DNA of 51,719 nucleotides, taken from contig PBSY01000037.1 of the NCBI GenBank assembly GCA_002726915.1, forward strand, positions 1 through 51,719. Reading direction: 5' to 3'. The DNA comes from Verrucomicrobiales bacterium. GTDB taxonomy: Bacteria > Verrucomicrobiota > Verrucomicrobiia > Verrucomicrobiales > DEV007. The position numbers were made by a program, and so were the translations under genes. Position 1 is the stretch's first letter. Each line of letters begins with the position of its first letter. A model generated the notes under the pieces. That model was given only the letters and a program-made list of their open reading frames with translations. It searched no databases and was not told the DNA's origin. Positions 291-7,084 of the stretch are shown piece after piece.

Positions 291-797
291 TCAAGGAAGC
301 GGTTCAATGAAGCAACCAATGGGCTTTGTTTGTGTGAATGGTAGAGTCTCTCCTGCTATCATGCTTTTAAGAGTTTTTCTTAGGTAGGATTCCGTAGCGA
401 CTCTTCGCTTGTCTCCATAATTCTTGAAGAGGTTGTCAATCAGCCCGCGATATAAAAGGTGATTTTTCGAATCGAAGATGGCAACCTCGGGAGTGAAGGA
501 GGCACCGGCGGCTTTCACTCGTTCATGATTTCGATCGCGCATTCCCGGGATCTTCAAAAAGTATTCCTTCCGATGTTCTGCGATTTCAGCATCGGTGGTC
601 GTTGGATCTGGGTAGACGAGGTGGAAGTCGAAGCCTTCAGGCGAAAATTCGTCGTAAATTCTCGAAAGCTCGGGGGCATAGGCATTTGCAATCGGGCAGT
701 CGATTGAGAAAAAGATGTCGACGCGCCCGAGGTAGTCTTTAGCATCAGACTCGCTTGTTAAAAGGAATGCTGTGACTGTTAAGAGGAGGCGGATCAT
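291..797 (-). CDS. Secreted redoxin / thioredoxin-like protein paired with copper monooxygenase
   Basis: A 168-residue thioredoxin-fold protein. The first ~19 residues look like a signal peptide, so it should act in the periplasm. The active-site-like stretch is SIDCPIANAY with a single Cys at residue 34. A second Cys (162) lies in a conserved-looking tail, KPIGCFIEPLP. This resembles the AhpC/TSA-redoxin variants found beside cytochrome-monooxygenase genes in Planctomycetes and Verrucomicrobia. The ATG overlaps the TGA of the upstream monooxygenase gene (ATGA at 794-797), so the two are translationally coupled and probably work together. A role in reducing a cysteine or copper site of the partner, or in removing peroxide it makes, is inference. 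The family is clear; the substrate is unknown. Confidence 0.8.
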   Translation of the reverse strand: MIRLLLTVTAFLLTSESDAKDYLGRVDIFFSIDCPIANAYAPELSRIYDEFSPEGFDFHLVYPDPTTTDAEIAEHRKEYFLKIPGMRDRNHERVKAAGASFTPEVAIFDSKNHLLYRGLIDNLFKNYGDKRRVATESYLRKTLKSMIAGETLPFTQTKPIGCFIEPLP

Positions 798-2311
798 GCG
801 TCTCGCGATGCCTTTAAACTTTCCAACCAGTCCTGCAGAACTTGCAATTCGGAGGGGTCGAGTTCCTTGTTTTTATCCTTGTCTAGCCGTGGTAACAGAG
901 CGCCGCGGAGACGCGTGGGTAGTTCATTACTTTGTAAGGTGCCATCAGAATTTTTATCAAGGAATCGAATCATCGATGGGAGTCCTTCTAGCAAACGTGT
1001 GTTGGAAAATTCCCTTCCCAATTGGGCGAGGATCTTTGTCTGGTTTATCTTGGTTTGCCTCGATAGTGCGGCGGTGTCAGAAGCCTTCACTGGGACGGCA
1101 AGCAAGGTGACGCTGCCCATTTCATCAGTAGACTCGAGTCCCCATTTGATTCGACGTGGTGGCGAGAAGGGATTGTCGTAGTTGTCCTCGGAGTTGTCGT
1201 AGGTGATTACAGTCGTTAAAACGGTTCCGGAAGGTAAAATGACCTTCTCTTTGAAGTAGTAAGTGTCCTGCCAATCCAGATCCCAGTCGGGAATTTCGAG
1301 TAAGACACGTTCCTCGCCATCGGGAAATTTTGCGGTCATGGCCATGGTCTCTGCCAAATAGTGAGCGTGACCAGTGATGGCGACCGCTTCGGCATCCACT
1401 GGGAGAGTAAAGTTGTCTGTGATAGTGTAGTTTTTCTCACCGGGCGGGATGTCGATTCCAATGCCGCGGCCGAAACCCGGGGGGATTTGTATTTCCTGAA
1501 TCAGACGCGAAGGAGCTTTATCTGCGAGGTAGATTCCGACCTTGGTTTGTTCGAGTTCGGGTTTGCCGGAAGGGTGAAAATGGGTGGAGAGAACGAAGTC
1601 TGAGCCCTTCGGAAGCGGGCGAGCAAGGTCGCCTGGTAGCAGGCGGGGAGAAACACCTGGGACGTAGCCGCCAAGTGAACCGCTCTTGCGGAATTTCATA
1701 CCTTGAAACCCGGGCTTCCCATCTTTCCCTTCTAGTTTTCGCGCGGTGCCACTATCATCGAGAAAGAAGAGTGAGTGATGAACGACCGCACGGGTTGACG
1801 GACGTAGCTCGATAGCTTTCACCCACTTGTCTTCGTCAAGTTCAAGGGGTAAAACGAAGTTGCGATAGACATCGGGGCCATCAGCTGCAACCGGATATGC
1901 CCGACTCATTGTTAGGATAATATCCGGCTCTCCTAATTGCCAGCCCCGAGGAAACGTAGGAAGCTCTGGCGTGTCTTGTATATTTCCTTCCTGTTTGCCG
2001 GACTCAACCCACTGATTGATGAGTTCAATTTCGCTGTCATCAAGACGTCGTATATCTGAAAAGTGAGATAACTGAGGGCTGGCGTGCCACGGTGGCATGT
2101 AGTGTTCGTTAACGACGCGCCTAATGGTGCGAGCTTTCTTGGATACTTCATCAAAGCTGCTCAGAGGGAAAGGGGCGTTTTCGCCTTCGCGGTGGCAGCT
2201 AGTACAGTTGCCATAGATAATTGGGGCAACGTCGCGGTGGTAGGTCACCTCAGACATGCCTGTCGAAGCAAAGACTGAGCTGATAACAAACAAGAGAGGG
2301 GCATGTTTCAT
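794..2311 (-). CDS. Secreted cytochrome c / PHM-like dicopper monooxygenase / EF-hand fusion
   Basis: A 505-residue secreted protein with a signal peptide (about 1-20). An N-terminal cytochrome c domain has haem site CTSCH (36-40) and a likely Met ligand in YMPPWH (~72). The middle (~125-410) matches the copper type II ascorbate-dependent monooxygenase fold (peptidylglycine alpha-hydroxylating monooxygenase, dopamine beta-hydroxylase). A full set of candidate copper ligands is visible in the right order: HH at 178-179, HFH at 244-246, HAH at 315-317 and Met 398. The C-terminus carries two EF-hand-like loops (DKNSDG ~452 and DKDKNK ~477). The redoxin gene overlaps its stop by four bases. The fused haem domain may supply the electrons that ascorbate supplies in animals; that is inference, as is a hydroxylated organic or peptide substrate. 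Confidence 0.85.
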   Translation of the reverse strand: MKHAPLLFVISSVFASTGMSEVTYHRDVAPIIYGNCTSCHREGENAPFPLSSFDEVSKKARTIRRVVNEHYMPPWHASPQLSHFSDIRRLDDSEIELINQWVESGKQEGNIQDTPELPTFPRGWQLGEPDIILTMSRAYPVAADGPDVYRNFVLPLELDEDKWVKAIELRPSTRAVVHHSLFFLDDSGTARKLEGKDGKPGFQGMKFRKSGSLGGYVPGVSPRLLPGDLARPLPKGSDFVLSTHFHPSGKPELEQTKVGIYLADKAPSRLIQEIQIPPGFGRGIGIDIPPGEKNYTITDNFTLPVDAEAVAITGHAHYLAETMAMTAKFPDGEERVLLEIPDWDLDWQDTYYFKEKVILPSGTVLTTVITYDNSEDNYDNPFSPPRRIKWGLESTDEMGSVTLLAVPVKASDTAALSRQTKINQTKILAQLGREFSNTRLLEGLPSMIRFLDKNSDGTLQSNELPTRLRGALLPRLDKDKNKELDPSELQVLQDWLESLKASRDA

Positions 2312-2476: not shown

Positions 2477-3847
2477 TCAGGGGTTTCTCCGCTGCCATGG
2501 GTGTCGACCCGCTTGATTAATGTGTGTCATGAGAGCGTTAAAAAGTTCGTCATAGACCTTTGATGCCCTTTCTCTGGGGACAGGATTCTGCTCTCTTGGA
2601 TCGTTGGCAAGATTGAACAATTGATAAGGTTCGAAGGGATGGTTGCGAAGCAATTTCCAATCACCGGTCCGGACAGCATGGTAGGGGATCCCTCCATACT
2701 TCATGTTACCCTCGAGACGGACCCAAAAGAGGGTTCGGGGTTCTTCTTTAAAAGGCTCTCCTTTGAGCACTGGTAGAAAGCTTCGCCCGTCAATTTCTTG
2801 ATCTACTGGTAGCCCAGCAATCTCTGCAAGAGTCGGGTAGATATCCATTGTCAACGATACATGATCAGCCTGCCGAGACGAAGCATCGATAACGCCAGGC
2901 CATGTCACGGCTGTCCCCACACGAATCCCACCCTCCCACATGTCCTGCTTGGCTCCAGAGAGCGGTAGATTCCGGGCTCCGACGTTACCCTGTCCGCCAT
3001 TATCACTTGTGAAAATAACGACAGTATCTTCCCAAAGACCTTCATCTTTGAGCCCTTGAATGACACGCCCAACGCCTTGGTCGAGGTGTTCGATCAGTGC
3101 CACAAGAGCAGCGCGCTTTTTATCAATTCCCTTCTCACGATCTAGCACCTTGTTGAGCCACTCTTGGGGGGGCTGGATCGGTGTGTGAGGCGCATTGTAG
3201 GCAAGGAAGAGAAAGAAAGGATTATTTTTTTCCGTTCGAGTTTTTAAATATTCTAAAGTCCAGTCAGTGAACAGATCTGTAGCGTGCCCCACCGGTTCGA
3301 TCACTTCTTCCATTCGGCGCATGTAGTTCTGACCGAAACGACGGTGACCATAGTAATCATCCATCATATCGCCTAGGAATCCGTGGAAAAAATCAAAGCC
3401 GACATCTTGCGGCCGGTCAGGCGCTTCCAGTCCAAGATGCCACTTGCCGATCAGAGCGGTGTCGTAGCCAGCCGTTTTCAGGTGTGTAGGCAGAGTGATG
3501 ACGTCGTTACGGAGGTCTCCCCAGTTTGTTGGGCGATTATCAAGCGGTGTTCGGATAACTCCGGGGACTCCGGCATTGTCTGGATAAAGTCCAGTTAGGA
3601 ACGAAGCACGGGTGGGAGAGCAGACGGGACAATTCGCGTAGAAAGAGTCAAAGCGCATCCCGGCGGCGAAAAAATCGTCGATATGCGGTGTTTTGAGATC
3701 GGGAGCGCCGTAGCAGGATAGGTCCCCGTATCCAAGATCATCCACCATGATGACGAGAATATTGGGTTTACCGGTGTCAGCATGGGCTGAAGCGCCGTTA
3801 ATCCCGAAGCTCAATAATAGCGCGATAAACCTAAAAAACGATTTCAT
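2477..3847 (-). CDS. Secreted sulfatase (type I, arylsulfatase A-like)
   Basis: A 456-residue sulfatase. The metal-binding start NILVIMVDDLGYGDL and the activation motif CSPTRASFLTG are both present (from the chosen ATG, Cys is ~76 and the Asp pair ~36-37). Cys would be converted to formylglycine. The IGKWHLG and FTSDNGGQ segments complete the family signature. The chosen ATG at 3847 puts a clean signal peptide (MKSFFRFIALLLSFG) at the start. A TTG 12 codons upstream also opens the frame, but it would nearly touch the divergent SGNH gene. Product: a periplasmic or secreted enzyme hydrolysing a sulfate ester, probably on a polysaccharide. The next gene is read divergently 39 bp away, so the two may share a promoter region. 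Confidence 0.92.
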   Translation of the reverse strand: MKSFFRFIALLLSFGINGASAHADTGKPNILVIMVDDLGYGDLSCYGAPDLKTPHIDDFFAAGMRFDSFYANCPVCSPTRASFLTGLYPDNAGVPGVIRTPLDNRPTNWGDLRNDVITLPTHLKTAGYDTALIGKWHLGLEAPDRPQDVGFDFFHGFLGDMMDDYYGHRRFGQNYMRRMEEVIEPVGHATDLFTDWTLEYLKTRTEKNNPFFLFLAYNAPHTPIQPPQEWLNKVLDREKGIDKKRAALVALIEHLDQGVGRVIQGLKDEGLWEDTVVIFTSDNGGQGNVGARNLPLSGAKQDMWEGGIRVGTAVTWPGVIDASSRQADHVSLTMDIYPTLAEIAGLPVDQEIDGRSFLPVLKGEPFKEEPRTLFWVRLEGNMKYGGIPYHAVRTGDWKLLRNHPFEPYQLFNLANDPREQNPVPRERASKVYDELFNALMTHINQAGRHPWQRRNP

Positions 3848-3886
3848 GATAGAACCATTCTCGCTTCTACTCGTTTCCGACAAGCC

Positions 3887-5106: not shown

Positions 5107-6015
5107 TCACGCGCCGTCGCGCGCGGCTTGAAGGAACAAGTCGGCGTGTGCCTCAACCGAAGGTGTCAATGGATCGCTATAACCTCCTCCCATGGTAACA
5201 ACCACAGGTATGCCACTTCCACTAGCGAGGGAAAACACCATTTCATTGCGACGACGCAAGCCCTCATGCGAGAGGCTGAGCTGTCCGAGCTTGTCTGTGT
5301 CTAATCCGTCAACCCCCGCTTGAAAAAGAATCAACTCAGGTTCGAATAGAGGAGGATCTCTCTGGAGAAACGACTCCAGAGTGGAAAGGTATTCGTCGTC
5401 GGTGGTTCCTGGCGCGAACTCCACGTCGATGTCGGAAGTCATCTTACGAAAGGGAAAGTTTGTGCCGCAGTGGAAGGAAACCGTCCGAATATCTGGATCG
5501 TTTTCCAAAATTTGGGCCGTCCCATCGCCTTGGTGAACATCAAGATCAAGAATCAGAATACGTGAAATCCCATAGTCGCGACGCGCGACGAGTGCAGAGA
5601 TGGCGAGGTCGTTGAAGATGCAATATCCGGAACCAAAAGCGGCGTAAGCGTGATGAGTCCCTCCGCCCAGATTTCCAGCAAAACCACCGTTTTCGACAGC
5701 ATGTCGCATCGCTGAGATAGTTCCGTTTGTTAGAACGAGTGTTCGTTCAACTATGGCTTCTGTCCACGGGCGAAGCCCAATGCGGCGAACGCTACCCTTA
5801 TCAAGGCTGCCTGACAGAAAGGATTCCACATAAACTGTTTCGTGAGCTAGCAGGAGGTCCTTAACGGGCGTGGCAGCTGGCTCATGGTATACAATGCTGT
5901 TGCCAGCATCTTGCGAGCCTAAGAGTGCTCGCACAGCACGGTAGCGAGTCCTAGGGAAGGTCGCTTCTGGCGAGATTCCATCCGTGTAGATTTTTGAATA
6001 CCAAAGAGGAAACAT
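5107..6015 (-). CDS. Histone-deacetylase-like zinc amidohydrolase (HDAC/AcuC/AphA family)
   Basis: About 302 residues. All the usual arginase-fold deacetylase residues are seen (positions approximate): GGGTHHA (~117-123, the His dyad), DLDVHQGDGT (~157-166, zinc ligands Asp and His), AGVDGLDTDKLG (zinc Asp ~236) and MGGGYS with the catalytic Tyr (~279). It should therefore be an active zinc hydrolase. Bacterial members deacetylate acetyl-lysine in proteins (for example acetyl-CoA synthetase), acetylpolyamines or other amides; the sequence does not separate these. An ATG at 6015 is chosen over a TTG two codons upstream. It is the last gene of a four-gene minus-strand set (8418 to 5107), 55 bp after the ADP-ribosylglycohydrolase gene. 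An acetyl-CoA synthetase, a classic target of such enzymes, lies elsewhere in the window (41997-43943). Confidence 0.88.
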   Translation of the reverse strand: MFPLWYSKIYTDGISPEATFPRTRYRAVRALLGSQDAGNSIVYHEPAATPVKDLLLAHETVYVESFLSGSLDKGSVRRIGLRPWTEAIVERTLVLTNGTISAMRHAVENGGFAGNLGGGTHHAYAAFGSGYCIFNDLAISALVARRDYGISRILILDLDVHQGDGTAQILENDPDIRTVSFHCGTNFPFRKMTSDIDVEFAPGTTDDEYLSTLESFLQRDPPLFEPELILFQAGVDGLDTDKLGQLSLSHEGLRRRNEMVFSLASGSGIPVVVTMGGGYSDPLTPSVEAHADLFLQAARDGA

Positions 6016-6070
6016 GGGCAACGACAGAGCGGCTTTTCAGCGGGCAATGCGGGATAGTGATTTCTCGCGT

Positions 6071-7084
6071 TTAATCGTCAAAGATTGGTTTGAGAGTATC
6101 ACAGCGGAGACGTTCCATTGATTTTAGGTTTTGTAGCCAGTAGGCAGGAATATCTGGTGCGGCAGCGCCCAGCAATGAACCAACCACTGCTCCGCGGTGG
6201 CAACTGTCACCTCCACAGCGAGCGTTCGCTAGAATCCCTTCCGAGAAGTTATCGGAATATTTCCAAACGAGGCAAAGAGAAGCAGTGAAAGATTCCGGTA
6301 AGTAGCAGGCCGGGGAGTAATACTGACCAATGATTTGGCGATCTTCCAAGCTAGCCATTTTTTCGAGACGTTTTTCGCCGATCCAACCGTTAGCATGTTC
6401 AAGAATCACATCACGAAGGGTGTCGCCCCCCGCGACGGAATTGAGGATTCGGGCCATGGCGAGAGCGGCTCGGTCCACTTCGTGATTCTTGTGAGTGAGC
6501 GCGACATGTTGGCGGATGAGCTCCTCATCGATATATGTCGCCTCGTCCCGAAGAGCATCGGACGCCGCAATCAGAGCGGGCACGGCGGAAAGTCCTCCGA
6601 TATGAATGTCATCGATTCCACATCGGAGGGGAGGTGTGCCGGAAGCAAGTTGGTCAAAAAAGGCTCGATGGTATTCTTCAAGATAAGTGTCGAGATGCCA
6701 ACCGGGTGTCTGCATGAGGTCAATGTATTGATGTATCCACGATTCAGGATTGTAGCCGCCCGCACGGATGGTTGAGAGGTAGAGCTCGATTGCGAGAAGA
6801 TAATTGATCGTGTTGTCACCCGCCTCCAAAAACTGGTGGTAGTGCACCTCCCGCCGTCCCCAAAATTCTGCCTGGTCATGAAGAATTTCTCCGGTTTTAT
6901 TCCTCGGCTTATAGTGAGACCGCCAGAGGATACTGTCGGGATGAGAGCTTTTCGGTTTGAGATAACCTTTCAGCGAGCCGTAATCGCGATCGAGTGCTTT
7001 TGTGTTGTAATACCAGTGAACAGGTAGTGCAACGGCATCGGCAGCAAGTGAACCAAGGAACGCATTTTGGAGGCAGGTTTTCAT
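6071..7084 (-). CDS. ADP-ribosylglycohydrolase-family protein with altered metal motif
   Basis: A 337-residue member of the DraG/ARH/J1-crystallin family. It begins with the typical helix LQNAFLGSLAADAVALPVHW and has AGDNTINYLL (~88-97) where canonical enzymes have TDDT. Near the C-terminus it has CGGDSCHRGAVVGSLLGAA where DraG-type enzymes have GGDTDT. Family members remove ADP-ribose from Arg, Ser or other acceptors with two Mg2+ ions. Here the first Asp of the C-terminal motif is kept (293), but the second is replaced in a DSCHR sequence, so metal binding and substrate may differ. No signal peptide; cytoplasmic. It lies nine bases after the alpha/beta hydrolase gene and 55 bp before the deacetylase-like gene. 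Confidence 0.83.
   Translation of the reverse strand: MKTCLQNAFLGSLAADAVALPVHWYYNTKALDRDYGSLKGYLKPKSSHPDSILWRSHYKPRNKTGEILHDQAEFWGRREVHYHQFLEAGDNTINYLLAIELYLSTIRAGGYNPESWIHQYIDLMQTPGWHLDTYLEEYHRAFFDQLASGTPPLRCGIDDIHIGGLSAVPALIAASDALRDEATYIDEELIRQHVALTHKNHEVDRAALAMARILNSVAGGDTLRDVILEHANGWIGEKRLEKMASLEDRQIIGQYYSPACYLPESFTASLCLVWKYSDNFSEGILANARCGGDSCHRGAVVGSLLGAAAPDIPAYWLQNLKSMERLRCDTLKPIFDD

Follow-up and report, generated by a model that had tools for sequence, protein, structure and literature searches.

The animal enzymes PHM and DBH, which make amidated hormones and noradrenaline, are textbook copper enzymes that draw their electrons from ascorbate; PHM acts on peptides. Here we describe a bacterial relative of both from a Verrucomicrobiales bacterium (contig PBSY01000037.1, assembly GCA_002726915.1), encoded in a window of 51,719 nucleotides, by which we mean the whole stretch of DNA that was analysed. 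On the minus strand, to which all coordinates of the gene pair refer, an open reading frame at 794..2311 encodes a 505-residue protein combining a cytochrome c domain, a PHM/DBH-like monooxygenase core and EF hands, and the co-directional frame at 291..797 encodes a thioredoxin-like redoxin of 168 residues. As the initial annotation had it, the redoxin gene overlaps the stop of the monooxygenase gene by four bases (ATGA, 794..797), and the residues it named (C36, C39, H40, H178-H179, H244, H246, H315, H317 and M398) are found at those positions. Hydrophobic N-terminal stretches in both products look like signal peptides, that of the monooxygenase probably being residues 1–20 (2252..2311, read from the sequence in a part of the model with low confidence). 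We interpret the pair as a secreted, self-contained dicopper hydroxylation unit in which the haem c domain would feed electrons and the redoxin would act as partner, and give this reading roughly two chances in three.

The catalytic core (residues 127–409; 1085..1933) is predicted to adopt the two-subdomain fold of PHM, with which it shares 17–18% identity (PDB: 1sdw, 1phm). The link to the animal enzymes was made through profiles. A core-only profile of the window clade (A4, built from 47 of 51 listed cores) aligns at E 7.9e-101 with A6, a second profile made from 23 sister-clade cores, and the ligand motifs are in register; A6 in turn aligns with DBH at E 2.4e-6 and with PHM at about 2e-5. 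The A6 set was assembled after A4 had failed to find PHM, from loci chosen for the better Pfam scores of that clade. The alignment of A6 with DBH pairs HH with HH, HY with HY, HxH with HTH and EM with EEM; those with PHM span the His sites but stop before M314.

Using the PHM numbering given in PMC6123673 (H107, H108, H172, H242, H244, M314), H178-H179 (1775..1780) and H244 (1580..1582) correspond to the CuH ligands H107, H108 and H172, and A6 brings them into register with both DBH and PHM, its own HH aligning to that of either enzyme. H315-x-H317 (1361..1369) and M398 (1118..1120) correspond to the CuM ligands H242, H244 and M314, the last in the EEM motif of DBH, and are in register with DBH through A6. 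The spacings between ligand sites are 65, 71 and 81 residues in the window protein versus 64, 70 and 70 in PHM.

Relatives were gathered with the monooxygenase alone as the seed. A scan of genome contigs with six patterns, none of which includes a copper ligand and one of which (NEHYMPPW) includes M72 of the haem domain, yielded 69 loci in Verrucomicrobia, Planctomycetes and Gammaproteobacteria; a search for kin that used no patterns had matches in 41 of 56 genomes, the window's own included. The 99 loci correspond to 103 frames, 89 of them distinct with the window protein included, and many of these are near-identical or close relatives, all related by descent and hence not independent. Site counts were taken over the distinct frames that cover a site, again with the window included. 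On this basis the HH pair is present in 88/88 frames, H244 in 89/89, H315 and H317 in 89/89 and M398 in 88/88. The initial annotation had listed both His of the HFH at 244–246 as ligands: H244 stands, and because 20 of the 89 aligned sequences have Thr at position 246 (the other 69 have His), H244 is the only candidate of that pair.

A more divergent set of 35 further rows was counted separately; it includes two repeats of genes already in the set and the two pieces of a single broken gene. Not counted were the rows of L100, L103 and L114-L117, all being repeats of genes already used except L117, which has one full frame with all motifs and another cut by the locus end. Among rows reaching the site, the haem motif is present in 33/33, HH, H244 and M398 each in 34/34, and the CuM HxH in 32/34. 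Widespread homologues lacking these residues, which had been named beforehand as evidence that would speak against the proposal, were thus not seen, the loss being confined to two rows. In both (L129, 5918-7603; L120, 7682-9418) RARMN replaces the HxH and CuH and the Met are kept, so these are natural CuM-less variants. Judged by ligand register and predicted fold, the PHM/DBH-type dicopper assignment is supported, and the window protein is a member of this family with a fresh architecture that is real and well conserved.

The part of the architecture that sets it apart is the N-terminal haem c domain. Its attachment motif, CTSCH at residues 36–40 (2192..2206), contains the sole cysteines of the protein, and CxxCH is present in all 87 frames covering the motif, in agreement with the haem c domain first proposed. 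Met at position 72, in the motif MPPW (2096..2098), is likewise found in 87/87 and is the candidate distal ligand, as in a class I cytochrome c. Cytochrome_CBB3 matches 36 of the 51 members of the monooxygenase profile (A1, window included) at E<=0.01; the window protein itself scores 16.3 bits, below the cut-off of 27. Going by the domain architecture, the haem domain is probably the electron entry in place of ascorbate. Single electrons would most likely be taken up by the cytochrome from periplasmic donors and passed one at a time to CuH (H178, H179, H244), which, by analogy with PHM and DBH chemistry, would relay them; CuM (H315, H317, M398) would bind O2 and hydroxylate a C-H bond. The C-terminal EF hands may hold Ca2+ that serves structure or assembly. 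The redoxin would act on the monooxygenase, most likely as a thiol factor that sees to the proper redox state of cysteines, haem or copper sites while the enzyme is assembled or turns over.

That the redoxin belongs to the unit is borne out by co-occurrence across the 89 frames. In 58 of them its domain begins no more than 400 bases downstream, in the same orientation, and in 22 it is fused to the monooxygenase (N-terminally in 21, C-terminally in 1); three more have it downstream within about 1.8 kb, two upstream, and one frame lies at a contig end. With just three redoxin-profile matches in the 3.5 Mb of the window's own genome, the adjacency is not due to chance. The order of modules varies: cytochrome, PHM core and EF hands followed by a separate redoxin in the window; the same order with the redoxin in a single chain in Rhodopirellula baltica (L051); redoxin, cytochrome and PHM core with an EF-like loop after them in L092; EF hands, redoxin, cytochrome and PHM core in L095-L099; and redoxin, cytochrome and PHM core without EF hands in 15 gammaproteobacterial frames. 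Given the adjacency, the fusions and these varied orders, the two proteins very probably function together. Distances in the redoxin and core trees are correlated (Mantel r 0.755 over 100 pairs, 98 distinct; reached in 0/999 permutations, maximum 0.134), also within the 60 operon pairs (r 0.54), and shared host ancestry contributes to this correlation. For folding we took the alignment headed by L092 (A3), after a test had brought every one of its 28 redoxin and 17 monooxygenase rows into register; one headed by the L051 fusion (A2) misplaced the redoxin rows and was not used. A fusion to a different upstream protein, suggested by frames L009 and L083 (951 and 953 residues), was rejected: the N-terminal part of L009 looks like read-through of the frame before a normal start, and that of L083 was not read.

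The window redoxin exceeds the gathering score of PF08534 (30.7 versus 26.6 bits), falls slightly under that of AhpC-TSA (24.1 versus 26) and is assigned a thioredoxin fold. The redoxin profile A5 comprises the window sequence and 28 of 48 non-redundant relatives; N-terminal fusions and gammaproteobacterial rows are among those left out, which means that the columns invariant in it are those of the operon clade. The closest solved structures to A5 are 2ywi, 3u5r and 2cvb (E 5.4e-25 to 2.8e-18), with ResA structures next. Three residues are invariant in its 29 rows: C34 (696..698), at the position of the first Cys of the ResA CxxC; H75 (573..575); and C162 (312..314), in a C-terminal GC motif. 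The CxxC of ResA and TlpA is replaced by C34-P-I-A37, which makes the protein a CxxA thioredoxin-like redoxin with a second conserved Cys at 162. H75 is kept in 53/53 ungapped downstream-operon rows, 3/4 upstream-operon rows and the single C-terminal fusion; it occurs in 1/18 N-terminally fused rows outside the gammaproteobacteria and is absent from two standalone redoxins. Peroxiredoxins carry the active-site signature PxxxTxxC, and here 34 of 71 ungapped rows have Ser or Thr at position 31, while the window redoxin has Asp at residue 27. Of the 19 gammaproteobacterial fusions, 7 have Cys at position 34, 10 have some other residue there and 2 have a gap. The CxxA motif, the lack of the peroxiredoxin signature and these replacements weaken the earlier proposal that the redoxin protects or reduces the enzyme.

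A number of results weigh against the hydroxylation unit as we describe it. For the core, Cu2_monoox_C scores 13.4 bits in the window protein, below the Pfam cut-off of 23; a phmmer search with this protein matched no PHM and returned only two weak EF-hand matches; A1 matched PHM only at E 0.04; and the PDB search with A4 did not find PHM. With PF03712 the window's own genome gave nothing at E<=0.001, a result that is uninformative because none of the 14 controls matched either. We found neither activity nor metal nor haem data, and the two gammaproteobacterial paralogues from a single genome have lost the CuM His pair. For the redoxin, none was found in 3/89 frames (about 1.3–1.45 kb of downstream DNA examined), and the permutation counts overstate significance because related sequences are not independent. 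Both redoxin cysteines are present in only 3/19 gammaproteobacterial fusions and C34 in 7/19; taken together with a class of about 440–520 residues in the Pseudomonadales genome G241 that has a redoxin match neither within nor beside it (L120-L133), this means that some of the family can do without these thiols. Copper-family Pfam models match 13/51 A1 members at E<=0.01 and 18/23 A6 members at E<=0.001, and we read the low score of the window protein as a limit of model sensitivity, since fold and ligands are both in place and membership rests on those.

Most of the alternatives keep the hydroxylase and concern the redoxin. A copper chaperone or assembly factor with an SCO-like role, loading CuH and CuM or holding Cu(I) through C34, H75 and C162, would suit the thioredoxin fold, the invariance of these three residues in A5, the scarcity of H75 outside the operon clade and C-terminal fusion, and the tie to a copper protein at most loci. 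SCO proteins have a CxxxC that the redoxin lacks, however, H75 is mostly absent from the N-terminal fusions, and the standalone proteins 2ywi, 3u5r and 2cvb share both C34 and C162, which are thus not specific to copper partners; we consider this role unlikely. The same grade applies to a dedicated apocytochrome thioreductase of the ResA type, which would keep the cysteines of CTSCH reduced for haem attachment and take no part in catalysis. In its favour, those are the only cysteines of the monooxygenase, the ResA structures rank behind the three closest, and the NCBIfam ResA model picks up 23/29 A5 members at E<=0.001, although the window redoxin had no NCBIfam match at that level. Yet the second Cys of the CxxC is Ala, thioreductases of this kind usually serve cytochromes in general rather than one each, and the gammaproteobacterial fusions keep CxxCH while replacing C34 in 10/19.

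Hydrogen peroxide enters into a further proposal, in which the redoxin is a peroxidase that clears H2O2 from uncoupled turnover or the enzyme itself is a peroxygenase at CuM. The PF08534 and AhpC-TSA scores point towards the former, and H2O2 can substitute for O2 plus electrons in PHM according to PMC6123673, which is consistent with the latter. The peroxiredoxin signature is not kept, though, and the cis-Pro of the operon clade is thioredoxin-like, which makes the proposal quite improbable. Last, the protein could bind copper and haem without being a hydroxylase and serve in electron transfer, copper storage or sensing. No enzyme assay was found for any member, and two paralogues do without the CuM HxH; but both sites, CuM with its HxH and Met as well as CuH, are invariant in the 89 frames, and a pure electron carrier would not need a conserved O2 site. 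We regard this as very unlikely and retain the hydroxylation unit as the preferred reading.

The two EF hands of the initial annotation hold up as sequence motifs and fall short in the profile scores. Both loops, residues 452–463 (DKNSDGTLQSNE; 923..958) and 478–489 (DKDKNKELDPSE; 845..880), look canonical by eye, and EF-hand_1 matches 20/51 A1 members at E<=0.01, window included; the window protein is below threshold for EF-hand_1 (17.5 bits, cut-off 25.4) and EF-hand_6 (15.3, cut-off 25). A strict EF-hand pattern follows the core in 40 of 69 main-clade frames. Matches to lanmodulin are weak (E 0.29 by phmmer with the window protein, 3.6e-5 with A1, and 16.1 bits against a cut-off of 135 as the single, sub-threshold NCBIfam match of the monooxygenase, where the redoxin had none), and because of them binding of a lanthanide instead of Ca2+ is a conceivable possibility. 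At L095 (310-1200) four EF-hand-like loops, seen by eye, precede the redoxin.

In the sampled genomes, centre genomes included, A4 has matches in 10/194 of the window's phylum, in 57/149 of the Planctomycetota, the phylum of the Rhodopirellula baltica locus, and in 2/143 of the class of G241. The latter genome (2.8 Mb, home of locus L061) has 23 match rows that merge to 20 core places, one of them broken. We tentatively suggest, as a broader view that falls somewhat short of even odds, a large bacterial class of copper monooxygenases built as one machine from haem c, dicopper core, thioredoxin-like and EF-hand modules, permuted yet kept together, that would carry out extracytoplasmic C-H hydroxylation with respiratory-chain electrons instead of ascorbate, expanded to many substrates (20 places in the Pseudomonadales genome) and partly located near PQQ dehydrogenases, for which the alcohol product could be a substrate. 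Some members of the 440–520-residue class in G241 lie near such dehydrogenases, whose genes were found in 4/14 G241 stretches (L127, L130, L131 and L132) in the subset of open reading frames scanned.

A peptide substrate is unsupported beyond family membership. PHM-PAL peptide amidation was considered for a gammaproteobacterial NHL neighbour that looked PAL-like, and was not borne out: by phmmer it matched Thin, TRIM71, TRIM2 and similar TRIM/NHL proteins, with no PAL match at E<=1 (whole genomes were not searched for an amidating lyase), and its NCBIfam score for ScyF, 75.6 bits, is far under the cut-off of 350. Eleven gammaproteobacterial loci (within L056-L067) share as neighbours this NHL propeller, a HupE/UreJ-like membrane protein, a DNA/RNA non-specific endonuclease and an unannotated protein of 190–230 residues. 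At L136 (2532-7063) and L138 (3920-8385), a redoxin-cytochrome-PHM protein sits immediately next to an MMPL/RND exporter that has matches to the sterol-sensing domain, an adjacency that hints at hydrophobic substrates for this subclass. An ECF sigma factor cluster is found at 15/85 loci and an unannotated protein, which we take for an anti-sigma factor, at 22/85, the loci concerned being planctomycete ones. The two lie upstream of the monooxygenase in L051 (4275-5808), L050 (3025-4475) and similar loci, in the same direction as the monooxygenase in L051 and divergent from it in L050.

Upstream of the pair in the window lies a sulphatase gene (2477-3883) in the same direction, then a gene for a GDSL-type protein on the opposite strand and, beyond it, adjoining histone-deacetylase-like and ADP-ribosylglycohydrolase genes (5107-7084), which are also paired in L001, judged by their first residues. 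No functional link to the sulphatase is claimed: the cluster containing it is near only 16/85 loci and sulphatases are abundant in the genomes of such bacteria, so synteny within the genus suffices to explain it.

No paper on the cytochrome-PHM-redoxin architecture was found in searches of an open-access library, a scope that leaves out most subscription journals and all preprints. According to PMC6123673, it is unknown which of the special features of PHM the mechanism requires. A bacterial family like this one, with all copper ligands retained and a haem of its own, would uncouple the chemistry from ascorbate and let electron entry be followed optically; should it prove active, C-H hydroxylation with O2 would join the secreted activities of the Planctomycetota and of part of the window's phylum. 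Set beside PHM, the window protein carries a haem c motif in the same chain and has cysteines only in that motif, where animal PHM has several disulphides, and no link to an amidating lyase was seen at the loci with an NHL neighbour. DBH (PDB: 4zel) has a DOMON domain ahead of its core and uses ascorbate, whereas here a c-type cytochrome precedes the core. The redoxin shares both cysteines, that at the CxxC position and that of the C-terminal GC, with 2ywi, 3u5r and 2cvb, and differs from them in being tied to a copper monooxygenase and in the His at position 75 of the operon clade. The cytochrome of cellobiose dehydrogenase, which feeds LPMO, is not a relative, as haem type, fold and copper site are all different; it is alike in that a haem domain serves as the electron source of a copper oxygenase.
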